In this document: in pieces, positions 10,925 through 32,181 of the stretch
Layout: each line of letters starts with the position of its first letter
Position numbering within the stretch: the stretch's first letter is position 1
NCBI GenBank assembly: GCA_021821365.1
Contig: JAKACN010000027.1
Span: forward strand, 1 to 32,181
Origin: Pseudomonadota bacterium
GTDB lineage: Bacteria; Pseudomonadota; Gammaproteobacteria; Burkholderiales; Burkholderiaceae_D
Direction of reading: 5' to 3'
DNA: 32,181 bases
The notes under the pieces: model-generated
Databases searched by the model: none
What the model was told of the DNA's origin: nothing
What the model saw: the letters and a program-made list of their open reading frames with translations, nothing else
Position numbers and translations under genes: made by a program

Positions 10925-12499
10925 ATGCTGAACGGTCCCGGCAAACGCATTGGCTACGCCTTGATGGCGGTGACCGTCATTGCCCTTTCGACCTATTTCT
11001 CCTGGTCGGCAAGCCGGCGGGACGGCATCGCCGACCTTGGTCGCGAAGCCGCATATCACCTCGAACTGTCGCGCGCGACCCTGTTTGCCCCGACCGACAA
11101 GTTCGGCTTCCTGCCTGAAGTCGTCGCCAATCATGCGACGGTTCTCGATGCGTTGCGGCATGCGGACGATCCGGCATCGCTTGCACGCGCCAACCAGTTC
11201 CTCGAACAGACCAACAGTACCGCGAAATCGGCCGTGATCTACCTGCTGGACCACGCCGGCCTGGTGATCGCCGCCAGCAACTGGCGGGAGCCGGACAGTT
11301 TCGTCGGACAGAATTACGCGTTCCGTCCTTATTTCCAGGATGCCATCGCGCGTCGCACCGGGCGGTTTTATGGAATGGGCACTACCAGCATGCGCCCCGG
11401 CTACTATCTGTCGCATCCCGTGCTCGCGGGGAATCAGGTGATCGGCGCTGCCGTAGTCAAGATCGACATGAGCGACCTTGACCAGGGCTGGGGCAGGAGC
11501 CGCGAAGAAGTCGCGGTCGAGGACGGCAACGGCGTGATCTTCCTCAGCTCGCGGCCGGAATGGAAATACCGGCCGATGCAGGCGCTGACGAAAGAAGCCG
11601 GGGAACAGCTCCGGCGCACGCACCAGTATGACAAGGTGCTGATGCCCGCGCTTCCCATGTCCTTGCTGGAGCAGTTGCCGGGCGGCGAGCAGATCGTGGA
11701 GGTACGCCCTGGCGACATGGACGGCAGCGCATTGGAGCGCTTTCTGCTCAAGTCGGGCACGCTGCCCGGTTCCGACTGGACCATCCACGTATTCGCGCCC
11801 ATGAAGCAGGCCGACATGGTCGCCAGGCGCGTGGCGCTACTTACCGCCGGCGCATTGGTACTGCTGGCGCTCGCCCTCCTCTATCTGCAGCAGCTGCTCG
11901 ACCGGGCGCGCGAGCGCGAAAGGTCGCGCAAGGCGCTGGAGGAAGCGCACCAGGAGCTGGAACACAAACATCGGGAGTTGCAGCAGCTGAGCGAAGAACT
12001 GCACATTGCCTCGATCACCGATCCGCTGACCGGAGCGTACAACCGCCGCTTCTTTTTCGAAACGATTCCCAAGCTGGTGAGCGCCGCGAACCGGCATGAC
12101 TTTCCTCTTTCCTTCATCGCCATCGACGTCGATCATTTCAAGCGCATCAATGACATGTACGGCCATCCTGCCGGCGACAAGGTACTGCAGATGCTGACCG
12201 GCATATGCAAGGATTCACTGCGCGAGGCGGACGTCTTTGCGCGTTTCGGCGGCGAGGAATTCATGATGGCGCTGCCCAATACCCATGCGGAAGATGCGCG
12301 CCTGGTGGCCGACCGCCTGCGACTGCTCCTCATGAACCGCCCTGTTGAAATCCGGGGCGATGCGCTGGTCATCAGCGTCAGTTGCGGCGTCTCCGCGTAC
12401 CGCGCGGGAGAGGACGATGCCGGCCCTGCTCTCAAGCGTGCCGACGATGCGCTTTATGTTGCGAAGAGCAACGGCCGCAATCGGGTGGTCGTGGAATAG
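10925..12499 (+). CDS. Membrane diguanylate cyclase with DctB-like periplasmic sensor
   Basis: 524 aa. A membrane helix at 9-26 and another at 303-322 bracket a periplasmic double-Cache domain. Its sequence (RRDGIADLGREAAYHLELSR, AASNWREPDSFVGQNYAFRPYF, MRPGYYLSHPV) closely recalls DctB-type C4-dicarboxylate sensors. A charged coiled coil (325-362) leads to a GGDEF domain with active site GGEEF at 442-446 and metal-binding DVDHFKRIND at 401-410. RxxD at 433-436 is a product-inhibition I-site at the canonical distance. It should therefore synthesise c-di-GMP in response to a dicarboxylate-like ligand and be feedback-inhibited. The ribosome-binding site before the ATG is weak, so the start is moderately certain. 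Confidence 0.92.
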   Translation: MLNGPGKRIGYALMAVTVIALSTYFSWSASRRDGIADLGREAAYHLELSRATLFAPTDKFGFLPEVVANHATVLDALRHADDPASLARANQFLEQTNSTAKSAVIYLLDHAGLVIAASNWREPDSFVGQNYAFRPYFQDAIARRTGRFYGMGTTSMRPGYYLSHPVLAGNQVIGAAVVKIDMSDLDQGWGRSREEVAVEDGNGVIFLSSRPEWKYRPMQALTKEAGEQLRRTHQYDKVLMPALPMSLLEQLPGGEQIVEVRPGDMDGSALERFLLKSGTLPGSDWTIHVFAPMKQADMVARRVALLTAGALVLLALALLYLQQLLDRARERERSRKALEEAHQELEHKHRELQQLSEELHIASITDPLTGAYNRRFFFETIPKLVSAANRHDFPLSFIAIDVDHFKRINDMYGHPAGDKVLQMLTGICKDSLREADVFARFGGEEFMMALPNTHAEDARLVADRLRLLLMNRPVEIRGDALVISVSCGVSAYRAGEDDAGPALKRADDALYVAKSNGRNRVVVE

Positions 12500-12584: not shown

Positions 12585-12621
12585 AAAAAAACGCCCCGCA
12601 TCCAGGGAAGCGAGGCGTTTT
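12585..12621 (-). terminator. Rho-independent terminator between convergent genes
   Basis: On the minus strand, CGCCTCGC pairs with GCGGGGCG (one T-G wobble) around a short loop. The stem is preceded by A4 and followed by a run of seven T. It sits 38 bp after the YC-repeat gene. The plus strand also reads into a short T run, so it probably serves the diguanylate cyclase gene as well. Confidence 0.8.
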
Positions 12622-12658: not shown

Positions 12659-13468
12659 TCAGTGCGCTGCAGTGAGGTGCTGCACAGCCTTGCCGCCTGC
12701 CACTGCGCAATAGGCAGCCCGCTCCGCCTTCTTGCCTGCGGCGACTGCGCAATACGCTGCGGCCTCGACCTTCTTGTCTGCCGCAACCGCGCAATACGCC
12801 GCCTTGTCCGCAGCAACCGCGCAATAGGCGGCCTGCTCCGCCTTCTTGCCTGCGGCGACTGCGCAATACGCTGCGGCCTCGACCTTCTTGTCTGCCGCGA
12901 CCGCGCAATACGCCGCCTTGTCCGCAGCGACCGCGCAATAGGCGGCCTGCTCCGCCTTCTTGTCTGCGGCGACTGCGCAATACGCTGCGGCCTCCGCCTT
13001 CTTGTCTGCCGCGAGCGCGCAATACGCTGCCTTGTCCGCAGCAAGGGCGCAATAGGCGGCTTTCTCCGTCCCGACGCCGCCGAATTCCTTCTCGTACAGG
13101 CGGCGGCCGGCGGCAACGGCTTCCTCCTGGCGGGCAGCATCCTCTTCGCCGCGCAATCCGAAATAGGGGTAGTGATGGAGGAAATAACCGAACACCTTTT
13201 CGCAATCGTCGGCATATTTCATCGTATCGAGAATGTGGGCGTGCCAGAACTTGTCGACGCTCACGCTGGGCACAATCGTCTCGTCCGGATACTTCACCAC
13301 CAGCGCCAGGAAGCGCCTGTATTCCTGCTCGTAGTGGTCGGCCTGCTCCTTCGACCAGCCGTATCCGTCCTCCTTGCTCATCAGCTTGAATTTGATCGGT
13401 TCGAGGTCCAACGCGAAAATCGCTGCAACGGTTTTTTCCACTGTCTGGGTTTCGGTGTTCTTGTTCAT
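12659..13468 (-). CDS. GRDP/DUF1399-like protein with ten C-terminal AAYCA repeats
   Basis: 269 aa, soluble, without signal peptide. Residues 20-130 form a domain reminiscent of the N-terminus of glycine-rich domain proteins (DUF1399-like): YPDETIVPSVSVDKFWHAHILDT, with a WHAH motif at 75-78, then FGYFLHHYPYFGLRG. Residues 137-258 are almost pure Ala/Lys/Asp/Glu with ten AAYCA(V/L)A units. The ten Cys lie at 140, 150, 164, 178, 188, 202, 216, 226, 240 and 254, that is with spacings 10-14-14 repeated three times (38-residue super-unit). The repeat is predicted to be helical. No modifying enzyme, secretion system or oxidoreductase partner lies beside it. Possible roles (metal binding, thiol chemistry, peptide precursor, structural) cannot be separated here. 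The family assignment is tentative; the reading frame itself is firm. Confidence 0.85.
   Translation of the reverse strand: MNKNTETQTVEKTVAAIFALDLEPIKFKLMSKEDGYGWSKEQADHYEQEYRRFLALVVKYPDETIVPSVSVDKFWHAHILDTMKYADDCEKVFGYFLHHYPYFGLRGEEDAARQEEAVAAGRRLYEKEFGGVGTEKAAYCALAADKAAYCALAADKKAEAAAYCAVAADKKAEQAAYCAVAADKAAYCAVAADKKVEAAAYCAVAAGKKAEQAAYCAVAADKAAYCAVAADKKVEAAAYCAVAAGKKAERAAYCAVAGGKAVQHLTAAH
12695..13060. repeat. 114-bp tandem repeat encoding the YC units
   Basis: Near-identical 114-bp units begin at about 12722, 12836 and 12950; for instance the marker CTCCGCCTTCTTG recurs at exactly these positions. Each unit encodes three AAYCA motifs (38 residues). The high base identity, including at third codon positions, indicates recent expansion, and copy number may vary between strains. 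Confidence 0.9.
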
Positions 13469-13819
13469 TGGTGCCGCCCTTTCGGTAACGATGGATGGAG
13501 ACGTCGCGCCGATGAAAACTTGCCGCTGTTCATCGACGTGCGGCTTACTCTAGCACAAGGAAATATTAGCAAACTGGTAAGTTTATTGATGCAAGTCAAA
13601 CGGCGTATGCGCCGGCTTTTGCATGCGTCATGATGCCGATAGAGGGAAAATGGCGGTGCACGGAAGCGCCCGGACCCGGCCGGCCTTCTGAAAATCCCAA
13701 GCGGAATGGAAAAGTTATACACTCCCGATTTCGGCCATATCCTGAAAGAATCGCAAGCTTCCGGAGCGTGCCGCTGCGCGGATGCCGGCAACACGGTTTC
13801 CTCGCCGTCCTTGAGCAAC
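13469..13819. other. Divergent control region between the YC-repeat gene and the CHASE kinase
   Basis: No gene supported. It contains a perfect inverted repeat AAACT-GGTA-AGTTT at 13571-13584 in an AT-rich patch about 105 bp upstream of the YC-repeat gene, a possible operator. The kinase frame is open from 13706, but that N-terminal extension is unlike kinase sequence and is not included. Confidence 0.4.
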
Positions 13820-16027
13820 ATGACTGAACGATCTCCGATGCGCATCTCCCAACGATTCTTCAAATCCCTTTTCTCGTCCACGGTCTGGTGGGCGGGCATG
13901 GCGATTTCGTTTGCGCTTTCCGTACTCACGACCAGGGCGATCGAGGACAAGAACGAAACGCACTTCGCCTACCAGGCCAATAACGCGCAACTCGCGATCC
14001 AGGCGCGTGTCCAGTCCTACATCGACGTGCTGCGCGGGGTCCGGGCACTGTTCTATACCAGCGACCGGATCACGCGTGAGCAGTTTCATGCCTACGTGCA
14101 GAAGCTGAATCTGGAGAAAAGCTTCCCGGGCATCAAGAGCCTGAACTTCGCGCCGCGCATACTTCCGCATGAGAAGAAAGGGTTCGAGGCGGCGGTGCGC
14201 AAGGACACCAGCCTCGACCCGCGCGGCTATCCGGATTTCACGATCAAGCCGGCAGGCGAACGCAGCGAGTATCACGTGCTCACCTATCTTGAACCGATGC
14301 AGATCAACCAGGTCGTGTTCGGGTCGGACATGTGGGCGCTGCCTGCGGCGGCCAAGGCCCTTGCCGCCTCACGCGACACCGGCAAGCTCGCCTCCTCCGG
14401 CAAGCTGATAGAAATCGACGGCGCCGACCCCCATGTCGGCCTCGCGATGCGCCTGCCGCTCTACCGGCGCGGCAGGCCGCTCGATACGGTCGAACAGCGG
14501 CGCGCCGCCTATTATGGTTCGGTCGGCGCCGGGTGCGATGGCAGCGACGTGATGCTCGACGCCGTCGACCGGGGTACGCTGAACTATGTACGGGTCCGGC
14601 TGTACGACGTCGGCCACCATAACGAGCCGCTTGCAGCGGGCACAACCGACCCGAAGCACTTGCTGTTCGACAGCGCGGCGCCGGTCGGCACCCTGCATAT
14701 CCAGCCGCCCTCGCTCATGGGCGAACTGTTCGTCAAGCGTGTCACCATGCCGGTCGGCCCGCGCGTATGGGAAGCCGAGTTCTCGGCCAGCAAAGCGGAG
14801 ATGGTGGACAGCTTCGACACTTACCTGCCGTGGATGGTGCTGGTCGGCGGATTGCTCAGTACCGTGCTGCTGTACGCCATCTACTACTCGATGATGACTG
14901 CGCGCCGTCGCGCGGTGGAACTGGCGCAGGAAATGACCAAGGACCTGCGCACCAGCGAGGCGAGCCTGGCGGAAGCGCAGCACATGGCGCGCCTCGGCAG
15001 CTGGGTACTGGAGCCAGGCGGCGGAAAAATGAAATGGTCCGCCGAGACCTACCGCATCTTCGGCGTCGACCGCCTGCTGGACGAGCCGCACTATGAATTC
15101 TTTCTGAACCACATCCATACGGAGGACCGGCCGAAAGTGCGCGCCGGGCTGGACCATTCGATCATCACCGGAGAAGAATTCACGCTGGAGCATCGCATCG
15201 CGCTGGCCGACGGCTCGGTGCGCTGGGTGCAAACGATTTCGCGCCTCGGGCATGACGAGCGCAACATGCTGCTGCGCGGCACCATCATGGACATTTCCGA
15301 ACGCAAGCACACGGTCGAAGCACTGAAGCGCTCGCAGGAACTGCTGCGCGAGCTGACCGCCTACCAGGACCGGGTGAAGGAGGACGAACGCAAACGCATC
15401 GCGCGCGAAATCCACGACGAGCTCGGCCAGACCCTGCTCGCCCTGCGCATCGATGTTTCCATGCTCGATGCGCGCACGGCGCATTCGCATCCGCGCCTCA
15501 ACGAGAAAGTGCGCGGCGCGCTCAACCACATCGATGCCACGGTCAAGACTATCCGCACCATCATCAACAACCTGCGCCCGGCCGTGCTCGACCTCGGCCT
15601 GACAGCGGCCATCGAATGGCAGGTCGCGGAATTCCGGCGCCGCACGGGCATCGAATGCGACCTGCTCATCGGCGACAAGGAATTCGTGGTGGACGATGCC
15701 CGCGCCACGTCGCTGTTCCGCATCCTGCAGGAATCGCTCACCAACGTGATCCGCCACGCCAACGCCACGCATGTGACGATCGAGCTATACCAGGAAGACA
15801 ACCGCCTGGTCATGACCGTCACCGACAACGGCGTCGGCATTTACCCGGACCGTCGCAAGGCGTCCCAATCGTTCGGACTGGTCGGCGTGGAAGAGCGCAT
15901 CCACGCGCTCAACGGTGAGTTCCATATCGACAGCACGCCCGGCAGGGGCACGACGCTGACGATCTACCTTCCCCTGGGAACGGAAAAAGAAACGACTTAT
16001 CCAGCCAGGCTGGTCAGCTCGAATTGA
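13820..16027 (+). CDS. CHASE-domain sensor histidine kinase, NarX/HisKA_3 type
   Basis: 735 aa from the ATG at 13820; an ATG at 13838 (MRISQRFF) is an alternative. A membrane helix at about 20-40 is followed by an extracytoplasmic CHASE domain (about 70-320: YIDVLRGVRALFYTSDRITREQFHAYVQKL, FPGIKSLNFAPRI) and a second helix at about 337-362 (LPWMVLVGGLLSTVLLYAIYY). A PAS fold then follows (LGSWVLEPGGGKMKWSAETYRIFGVDR), then HisKA_3 with RIAREIHDELGQTLLALR, and HATPase with DNGVGI. The HDELGQ box is the NarX/DegS signature. A partner would be a NarL/FixJ-type regulator, and none lies in this window, so the kinase is orphan. CHASE domains sense low-molecular-weight ligands outside the cytoplasm; the ligand is unknown. 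Confidence 0.93.
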   Translation: MTERSPMRISQRFFKSLFSSTVWWAGMAISFALSVLTTRAIEDKNETHFAYQANNAQLAIQARVQSYIDVLRGVRALFYTSDRITREQFHAYVQKLNLEKSFPGIKSLNFAPRILPHEKKGFEAAVRKDTSLDPRGYPDFTIKPAGERSEYHVLTYLEPMQINQVVFGSDMWALPAAAKALAASRDTGKLASSGKLIEIDGADPHVGLAMRLPLYRRGRPLDTVEQRRAAYYGSVGAGCDGSDVMLDAVDRGTLNYVRVRLYDVGHHNEPLAAGTTDPKHLLFDSAAPVGTLHIQPPSLMGELFVKRVTMPVGPRVWEAEFSASKAEMVDSFDTYLPWMVLVGGLLSTVLLYAIYYSMMTARRRAVELAQEMTKDLRTSEASLAEAQHMARLGSWVLEPGGGKMKWSAETYRIFGVDRLLDEPHYEFFLNHIHTEDRPKVRAGLDHSIITGEEFTLEHRIALADGSVRWVQTISRLGHDERNMLLRGTIMDISERKHTVEALKRSQELLRELTAYQDRVKEDERKRIAREIHDELGQTLLALRIDVSMLDARTAHSHPRLNEKVRGALNHIDATVKTIRTIINNLRPAVLDLGLTAAIEWQVAEFRRRTGIECDLLIGDKEFVVDDARATSLFRILQESLTNVIRHANATHVTIELYQEDNRLVMTVTDNGVGIYPDRRKASQSFGLVGVEERIHALNGEFHIDSTPGRGTTLTIYLPLGTEKETTYPARLVSSN

Positions 16028-16169: not shown

Positions 16170-16880
16170 CTACGCCACATCCTTGCGCAACAGGTCGACG
16201 CGCATCGGCACCTTGAACACGGCGCCCTCGGACGTCATGTGCCGCTCGAACTTCGCGCGCACCTCGTCATACAGTTCCGGCGACAGCACGTGGCTGGTGT
16301 GCGTGACCTTCAGCACCGCGCGATCGAATTGCGCGAAGTCCTGGTAGCGCACCGTCGCGTTGAAAAACACTTCCCGTTCGAGGCGCAGTTGCCCGGATTC
16401 GACCGATTGCCTGATGGCCTCGAACGCGGCCTTGCGCACAGCTTCCTCGTTGTGAAAGAGACGCAGGATGTCGTTGTAATCGCCGGCGAAGATCGGTTCC
16501 GACAGATAGGCCAGCCCGCCCGGCTTGAGCACGCGGCGGATTTCCTGCAGGGCGCTGTCCATCTTGTCCACCGGAACATGATGCAGCGACTTGAACATCA
16601 TGACGACGTCGAAACTCGTATTGTCCGCCGGAATTTCTTCCGCGCCGCCGAGCGCGAAGCGGACATTGGGCAGGTCGGCGATCTGCATGTTCCTGTCGTG
16701 CTGGATGCGGTCGACTTCCAGCGCGAGAATGAAGTCCGCCTTGCCACCCTGCGCGATCTGGCGTGTCTTGTCGGCCTTGCCGCAGCCGAGTTCGAGCACG
16801 CGCGCGCCCTGCGGCAGGATCTCGTTGACCAGTTGCATTTCATCGAGTGCGAGATCGATTCGATCCGGAGCCAGTTGCAT
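16170..16880 (-). CDS. Class I SAM-dependent methyltransferase
   Basis: 236 aa with a Methyltransf_11/25-type Rossmann fold. Motif I is VLELGCGKADKT around residue 28, an acidic strand end LALEVDRIQ gives the ribose-binding residue, FDVVMMFKSLHHV is motif IV, and VLKPGGLAYLSEPIF is the post-motif. A helical C-terminal half (ATVRYQDFAQFDRAVLKVTHTSHVLSPELYDEV) would bind substrate. Start supported by GAGAGGAAAAG just upstream. Substrate unknown. It lies 72 bp downstream of the TRAP binding-protein gene on the same strand, and might be the last gene of that operon, but it has no obvious part in itaconate metabolism. Confidence 0.85.
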   Translation of the reverse strand: MQLAPDRIDLALDEMQLVNEILPQGARVLELGCGKADKTRQIAQGGKADFILALEVDRIQHDRNMQIADLPNVRFALGGAEEIPADNTSFDVVMMFKSLHHVPVDKMDSALQEIRRVLKPGGLAYLSEPIFAGDYNDILRLFHNEEAVRKAAFEAIRQSVESGQLRLEREVFFNATVRYQDFAQFDRAVLKVTHTSHVLSPELYDEVRAKFERHMTSEGAVFKVPMRVDLLRKDVA

Positions 16881-31785: not shown

Positions 31786-31996
31786 GTCCACGAAAAACAC
31801 GAAACTTTGACCTCCCGCAGTGCCGCGTCCGGTGCCGATTCAAACCGGCGCCGGTAATGTGCGGGAACAGCGAATTGTCCACAAACAACACAAAAGTCAC
31901 TAAAGAATAAAGAGGCAAAGAATTTTTGTGCTTTTTGTGTTTTTCGTGGACCCTCGCCTTTGACGTCCTGCGCATGGCTGCATGCCGGAAAAATCT
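31786..31996. repeat. 211-bp tandem unit 1 of the inverted-repeat element
   Basis: The unit begins GTCCACGAAAAACAC and contains the inverted arm GTGTTTTTCGTGGAC ending near 31951. A central hairpin is formed by CCGGTGCC and GGCGCCGG, enclosed by CCCGCA and TGCGGG. The last 45 bp (CCTCGCCTTTGACGTCCTG and following) form a linker to the next unit. It shares its outer arms with the element at 16032-16152. It does not encode a plausible protein. Confidence 0.85.
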
Positions 31997-32181
31997 GTCC
32001 ACGAAAGGCACGAAACTTTGACCTCCCGCAGTGCCGCGTCCGGTGCCGATTCAAACCGGCGCCGGTAATGTGCGGGAACAGCGAATTGTTCACAAAAAGC
32101 ACAAAAGTCACAAAAGAATAAAGAGGCAAAGAATTTTTGTGCTTTTTGTGTTTTTCGTGGACCCTCGCCTTTGACGTCCTG
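31997..32181. repeat. 211-bp tandem unit 2, cut by the window edge
   Basis: It starts GTCCACGAAA exactly 211 bp after the first unit and follows it almost base for base (for example the central CCGGTGCC hairpin and the GTGTTTTTCGTGGAC arm) to the end of the window, where it stops at the GACGTCCTG linker also found at 31962-31970. More units may lie to the right. Confidence 0.85.

Follow-up and report, generated by a model that had tools for sequence, protein, structure and literature searches.

Repeat-tailed GRDP-like proteins are encoded beside CHASE receptors, and their aromatic-Cys/Ser units follow the receptor sensor

The window, the whole stretch of 32,181 nucleotides analysed here from a Pseudomonadota bacterium of the family Burkholderiaceae_D (GCA_021821365.1, contig JAKACN010000027.1), encodes on its minus strand (from an ATG at 13468 to a stop codon whose last base is 12659) a protein comprising a conserved N-terminal domain (N-domain) and a repetitive tail, located between a divergent CHASE sensor kinase gene and a convergent GGDEF diguanylate cyclase gene (Table 1). 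Ten AAYCA units were identified in this protein, with Tyr-Cys pairs at residues 139, 149, 163, 177, 187, 201, 215, 225, 239 and 253, corresponding to spacings of 10, 14 and 14 three times over. All ten aromatics and all ten cysteines of the tail (138 residues) fall inside these units, and the sole cysteine outside them, C89, lies in the N-domain. The tail is rich in alanine (59/138 residues, with 5 glycines), and even five Tyr-Cys pairs were reached in only 1/20000 shuffles of its sequence, placing the observed array above chance. Copies of the underlying 114-bp repeat show 94% matches (Tandem Repeats Finder), and Tyr is encoded by TAT and Cys by TGC in 10/10 cases each, as expected of a recent expansion. 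An earlier, sequence-only reading of this DNA had proposed the unit spacing, the association of a conserved domain with a repeat tail, and an expansion at the DNA level that kept its frame, and each of these proposals is borne out. The source genome carries a single copy of the gene, and given that relatives possess arrays of other lengths and unit sequences, the array is not peculiar to this assembly. A separate tandem repeat of 211 bp (1.9 copies, 96% matches) occupies window positions 31786-32181 and reaches the contig end.

Table 1. Features at and around the repeat-tail gene, in window positions.
Feature	Position	Strand	Basis or remark
Repeat-tail protein gene, 269 aa: GRDP-like N-domain and array of ten AAYCA units	12659..13468	-	
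N-domain, residues 1-136 (end about 131-136), six predicted helices	13061..13468	-	Alignment and AlphaFold2
Repeat tail, residues 137-269, predicted disordered	12662..13060	-	pLDDT block means about 24-34
114-bp tandem repeat, 3.2 copies, codes for most of the tail	12705..13068	-	Tandem Repeats Finder
Terminator-like hairpin, downstream of repeat gene	12594..12607	-	Consensus match only
CHASE-PAS-HisKA_3-HATPase sensor kinase, divergent neighbour of repeat gene	13706..16027	+	Pfam; conserved adjacency
GGDEF diguanylate cyclase, convergent neighbour	10925..12499	+	Sub-threshold dCache match, 33.7 bits (cut-off 45)

The GRDP-like family corresponds to Pfam PF07173 (DUF1399) and includes, for example, Arabidopsis GRDP2; its domain is defined by a W-H-x-H core, and a glycine-rich C-terminal region is expected of its proteins from the family name. 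Alignment of 30 N-domains revealed the conserved pattern D-x-FWHxHILDT..Y..DC...FG....HxP, with D70, F72, W73, H74, H76, D79, T80, Y83, D86, C87, G92, H97 and P99 among the invariant residues (numbered by the aligned fragment; protein numbering is +2). The W, H and H of the core were unchanged in 30/30 rows, with WHAH beginning at residue 75 of the window protein. PF07173 matched the window protein over residues 48-88 at 19.9 bits, below the Pfam cut-off of 22.7; the protein is thus a distant relative and not a member of the family, and its earlier description by eye as GRDP/DUF1399-like stands to that limited extent. It shares with GRDP-like proteins this weak profile match and the W-H-x-H core, and with other bacterial ones their often low-complexity, Cys-containing tails, but differs in its score below the cut-off, in an aromatic-Cys/Ser rather than Gly-rich tail, and in its CHASE partner. 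AlphaFold2 modelling with seven sequences predicted six helices for the N-domain (mean pLDDT 85.5). A Foldseek search of the PDB with this domain returned 41 matches at E up to 10, the best at 1.6 and none below 0.001; comparison with VIA-align reached a best Z of 4.6, and a PDB sequence search gave one match at E 0.44. None of these PDB matches is persuasive for the N-domain as modelled; by sequence it is distantly related to a known domain of obscure function.

With the window protein as query, matches were identified in 198/392 genomes of its family, covering 13/44 genera, although in 16 of the 198 these were distant relatives only (E 3e-7 or weaker). Matches to an N-domain profile, most of them distant, were found in 46/300 genomes of the order and 29/398 of the phylum. 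A mobile-element origin was rejected, with 29/72,556 plasmid records matching, none of which covered 80% of the query, and 1/50,697 phage records. For comparison of tails we assembled 113 distinct members from 85 genomes, after removal of duplicates, short domain hits and X-containing rows, together with a set of 46 tails from which duplicate sequences and short domain hits had been dropped; the loci derive partly from shared genomes (e.g. L039 and L040).

An array of three or more units of the form A-[Tyr/Phe/Trp]-[Cys/Ser]-small was found in 108/113 members, and the five members with fewer than three units, including both Moritella proteins, which have no array, were excluded from classification. 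All six combinations of aromatic with Cys or Ser are present among the 1016 units: YC 304 (a share that may be inflated, since most members were chosen from a list made with a Tyr-Cys-tailed query), WC 228, YS 223, FC 147, FS 101 and WS 13. Individual tails are largely uniform, with 96/104 of those possessing four or more units being at least 90% one class, and across the 113 members the units hold 1016/1274 tail aromatics and 679/704 tail cysteines. What stays constant, by these counts, is a small residue followed by an aromatic and then Cys or Ser, in most cases with another small residue after them. Ser-type tails account for 37/108 of those classified, and 5/46 tails retain the array and its aromatic with zero Cys; cysteine is therefore dispensable, and neither Tyr-Cys as the constant feature nor metal or thiol binding as the general function, both suggested by the sequence-only reading, can be upheld. 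That reading had also named homologues without a Cys-Tyr tail as grounds against its proposal. Such homologues do exist, as Phe, Trp and Ser tails, as the Moritella proteins and as short-tailed relatives outside the family, but the generalised motif is kept within the family.

Spacing between units ranges from 6 to 36 residues in relatives, mostly 8-22; a coiled coil, which the 10-14-14 spacing might have suggested, was rejected given this range and the predicted disorder of the tail. In 46/113 members, but not in the window protein, the C-terminus carries an RPx[L/S] motif, a possible docking or processing site. This motif lies within the last 25 residues and resembles FYxxRPRL or GKGRPxL.

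The sequence-only reading had advised a search for a conserved neighbour, and had missed the one directly adjoining the gene. A CHASE receptor gene was present in 42/46 long loci (42/44 without the two Moritella loci) and within 1.6 kb of 107/113 members; in the window kinase (13706-16027) the CHASE domain spans residues 121-308. The long loci without a CHASE gene are both Moritella loci, L040, in which the repeat gene adjoins a GGDEF-EAL gene whose dCache match is sub-threshold, and L043, in which the repeat gene lies beside a GAF-like-GGDEF-EAL gene that is at the contig edge and so possibly cut. The six members without CHASE within 1.6 kb comprise both Moritella proteins, L040, a second gene in G045 (at 2.1 kb) and two seen only in short loci, one of them in G297. 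Of 104 repeat genes paired with a CHASE gene, 94 lie downstream of it in the same direction and 10 are divergent, as in the window. The output part of the receptor also varies: CHASE-PAS-GGDEF-EAL in L005 and CHASE-PAS-GAF-GGDEF-EAL in L187 replace the kinase, indicating that what these receptors share is the sensor rather than the kinase, and a CHASE-PAS-GAF-GGDEF-EAL gene lies directly upstream of the repeat gene in the short locus of G297. CHASE matches were found in 335/392 family genomes, compared with 198 for the repeat protein, so CHASE also occurs without the repeat gene; this, like the arrangement in L040, weighs against a receptor-matched module. GGDEF-EAL genes adjoin the repeat gene in L005, L040, L043 and L187.

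Whether the GGDEF cyclase at 10925-12499 belongs to the module is uncertain; in Noviherbaspirillum denitrificans (L003) the corresponding position is occupied by a similar gene. When 26 loci were compared all-against-all by BLAST, no other neighbour accompanied the repeat gene across genera, save for matches due to shared signalling domains, and no exporter, protease or modifying gene was found to go with the pair. Domain scans of neighbours covered eight window proteins and ten further neighbours. Regional neighbours in one genome group include GlnRS, DnaJ-domain, epimerase-like and ferredoxin-reductase-like genes, as well as an MFS transporter (L049:3270-4538) with a similar open reading frame in 11 other loci.

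Several genomes possess two or three modules of receptor and repeat gene in tandem, and these revealed a pattern of constant middles and variable ends. In L053, for example, both the kinase cores and the N-domains of the two modules are 100% identical at the DNA level, whereas their CHASE sensors share 62% protein identity and the tail units read TAFCAGPH in one module and TAYCAGPR in the other. The same pattern, in varying degree, was observed in L048, L052, L137, L138, L139, L140 and L142. In eight of nine within-genome loci, amino acid identity between modules was 53-66% for the sensor, 92-100% for the kinase core and 84-100% for the N-domain, with tails carrying different units; the ninth, L056, has an interrupted sequence and lower identity values. 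Identity windows along six tandem loci resolved two constant blocks separated by diverged intergenic sequence, a pattern that indicates gene conversion; on account of this divergence, one uninterrupted conversion tract spanning kinase core and N-domain was rejected. Decayed-looking modules, in which the repeat tail was lost or the gene broken, were also identified (L179 in G019, and L055:8169-8643).

We examined the relationship between tail type and receptor using 103 of the 104 paired genes, one CHASE protein without a kinase motif being excluded. For the 73/103 modules with their own receptor (30 sharing a receptor were excluded), 17 changes of aromatic were required on the sensor tree, compared with 22 each on the kinase-core and N-domain trees. 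Shuffles of tails within genomes matched the true value in 1/500 cases for the sensor, 207/500 for the kinase core and 282/500 for the N-domain. Furthermore, in a set of 18 modules drawn only from the eight genomes that have at least two modules with their own receptor, the nearest relative in another genome carried the same aromatic in 18/18 cases by sensor, 7/18 by kinase core and 8/18 by N-domain. Across all 103 paired rows the changes numbered 26, 33 and 32, respectively. In a 24-row subset with Ala-Gly/Ser-Pro flanks, sensor clades coincided with units YCAGPW (6/6), YC[AG/AS]PR (6/6), FC (5/5), WC (3/3) and WCASPG (2/2). Taken together, the nearest-sensor and tree results indicate that the tail of a tandem module tracks the sensor encoded by the next gene better than it tracks its own covalently joined N-domain. 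A strict one-to-one pairing is not general, however, given the 17 changes on the sensor tree and the 15 receptors with two repeat genes downstream, whose tails differ in aromatic in 7/15 cases; the two repeat genes of G350 likewise have one receptor in common and differing tails. If sensor and tail descend vertically and conversion acts only on the middle blocks, the same pattern could arise without any contact between tail and sensor.

The unit motif is under strong purifying selection. Between copies within one tail, pN/pS was 0.062, 0.012, 0.017 and 0.060 at positions -1, 0, +1 and +2, rose to 0.20-0.23 at +3 and +4 and reached 0.48-0.93 in the outer spacers; units were recognised by [YFW][CS] and the profile is so conditioned, positions +2 to +4 being unconditioned. 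A flank-anchored check found [YFW][CS] missing in 8/804 units (~1%), and synonymous codons were variable at the fixed unit residues in most tails.

The pair is thus characterized by CHASE adjacency, co-duplication, a tail type that follows the sensor, and an output part that is swapped between kinase and GGDEF-EAL. Given the selection on the unit, its copy number, its constancy per receptor lineage in the best-sampled clades, and the occurrence of CHASE with two output types, the unit is most simply explained as a ligand or recognition element of the module. Our tentative preference is for a receptor-matched two-gene signalling module in which the units are the recognition element and the protein is possibly a multi-copy precursor of a peptide signal. 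A CHASE membrane receptor would be paired with a protein lacking an apparent leader, whose tail, predicted to be disordered, would present many copies of one short linear motif; this repeated unit would be the functional element and would correspond to the receptor lineage. The cognate CHASE domain may then recognise as its signal the units themselves, freed or displayed as peptides, while the shared N-domain, predicted to be helical, would handle the multi-copy precursor. We infer accompanying steps in which the tail meets the sensor, the protein or its peptides leave the cytoplasm, and the N-domain processes or escorts the tail. The precursor-like look remarked on in the sequence-only reading was in this respect right. 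A broader proposal, which we regard as possible but doubtful, is that these modules constitute an undescribed communication or self-recognition system of CHASE receptors and multi-copy aromatic-Cys/Ser precursors, in which aromatic and flank form a receptor-specific code and tandem modules are kept distinct while their kinase cores and N-domains are homogenised by conversion.

Among the known kinds tested, none accommodates the repeat code and its link to the receptor. Agr, ComQXPA and ComCDE are peptide pheromone-receptor loci with pherotypes, and resemble the present modules in having a variable sensor and a variable peptide beside a constant kinase core; here, in contrast, no leader, exporter or protease is apparent, the sensor is a CHASE domain, and each protein carries many copies of the unit. 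In Dictyostelium, as described in PMC7316887 and PMC1863423, SDF-2 is made from AcbA and sensed by the CHASE kinase DhkA. The likeness is that a CHASE kinase recognises a peptide derived from a larger protein, as proposed here, but the system is eukaryotic and uses an acyl-CoA-binding protein as precursor in place of a repeat array. Many bacterial CHASE receptors are described as orphan receptors in PMC1863423, and PcrK, a bacterial cytokinin receptor, is named in the reference list of PMC7316887. A title-level literature search, mostly without subscription papers, gave no description of the gene pair among the matches listed. The gene was found in 198/392 sampled family genomes (16 distant), nearly always beside a CHASE gene at the loci examined. 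If the unit is what the receptor senses, these proteins would provide natural ligands for bacterial CHASE receptors, and same-genome paralogues differing mainly in sensor and repeat would represent a natural experiment in ligand-receptor specificity. Even if the unit is not sensed, the constant/variable architecture makes the function of the GRDP-like domain directly testable.

Against a peptide signal, no export or processing gene appears to accompany the pair and no signal peptide is apparent, the N-terminus of the window protein lying inside the folded domain of the AlphaFold2 model. The closest rival is accordingly placed in the cytoplasm: an intracellular output or adaptor protein, whose N-domain would dock on the constant signalling part while its multivalent tail recruits a module-specific target. 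We consider this a serious alternative, albeit an unlikely one. It would accommodate the missing leader and explain copy number through multivalency, and the constant kinase core and constant N-domain would offer a natural interface. In addition, no LuxR-type response regulator was recognised in the 46 loci, using a crude pattern without a positive control, so that another output is conceivable. However, GGDEF-EAL can replace the kinase, such that docking on the kinase core would not be general, and no second gene kept beside the pair across genera, which might encode the target, was found in the loci compared.

The predicted disorder of the tail, the mostly 8-22-residue spacing of its units and the interchange of Tyr, Phe and Trp are also consistent with a condensate scaffold, in which evenly spaced aromatic stickers separated by small or charged spacers would promote phase separation close to the receptor, with Cys oxidation or Ser as the tuning element. 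The residues following the aromatic are nevertheless kept per receptor lineage (YCAGPW in 6/6 rows of one sensor clade), which would be needless for generic stickers, and the existence of Ser tails means that oxidation cannot be general; we therefore view this role as improbable.

A RiPP-like multi-core precursor, its Cys/Ser or aromatic residues modified either by its own N-domain or by the product of a gene located elsewhere, appears no better placed and is in our view likewise improbable. Its appeal lies in the conserved His/Asp/Cys pattern of the N-domain, the interchange of Cys and Ser, a SAM methyltransferase-like gene in the window (16170-16880), and the Gly/Cys tails of other GRDP-like proteins, two of which, when scanned, match TIGR04222. 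Members of the TIGR04222 group are in part proposed as MNIO substrates in PMC12452194, and the likeness to the proteins described there is a low-complexity C-terminal Cys tail. The window protein, by contrast, has no apparent transmembrane segment and gave no match in an NCBIfam scan at E 0.1, TIGR04222 included. No modifying gene kept beside the pair was found among the loci compared and the neighbours scanned, and the methyltransferase has a counterpart in 1/25 other loci compared. A genome-wide test of modifying enzymes, which covered MNIO only, found this gene (PF05114) to be common in the family (263/392 genomes) but present in only 3/8 same-genus genomes with a strong repeat-protein match; an obligatory MNIO substrate was rejected, given its absence from the other 5/8. 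The single MNIO match of the source genome is on contig C105, and the window on contig C6. This match (C105:15712-16497, L116) falls within an open frame of 552 aa, roughly double the model length, and similar long frames occur in a number of relatives.

A metal or thiol buffer would suit the ten cysteines of the window tail, but the Ser-type tails and the arrays that keep the aromatic with no Cys render it very unlikely. Near-neutral repeat expansion with a functionless unit, for which DNA-level tandem repeats that readily change copy number might speak, is hardly credible given the pN/pS profile, the residues fixed despite varying synonymous codons, and the rarity (1%) of degenerate units.

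Outside the family, close relatives (L060-L063, L090 and L092) carry short Cys tails and no array, and the sequence of L091 ends at the contig edge. A conserved short tail, C-x-x-HACH...CACR.PGACK, was identified in GRDP-like proteins of L006 (5950-6432), L007 (5986-6468), L060 and L061, the last of which weakly matched the FibroRumin Cys-rich RiPP model (16.7 bits, cut-off 45). Gly/Cys-rich ends, e.g. CGGCGGGGD, occur in many of the more distant GRDP-like proteins of bacteria (L064-L115), and the two with long C-terminal parts that were scanned, L094 and L098, also match TIGR04222. The association of a GRDP-like domain with a Gly/Cys tail is thus wider than this family.
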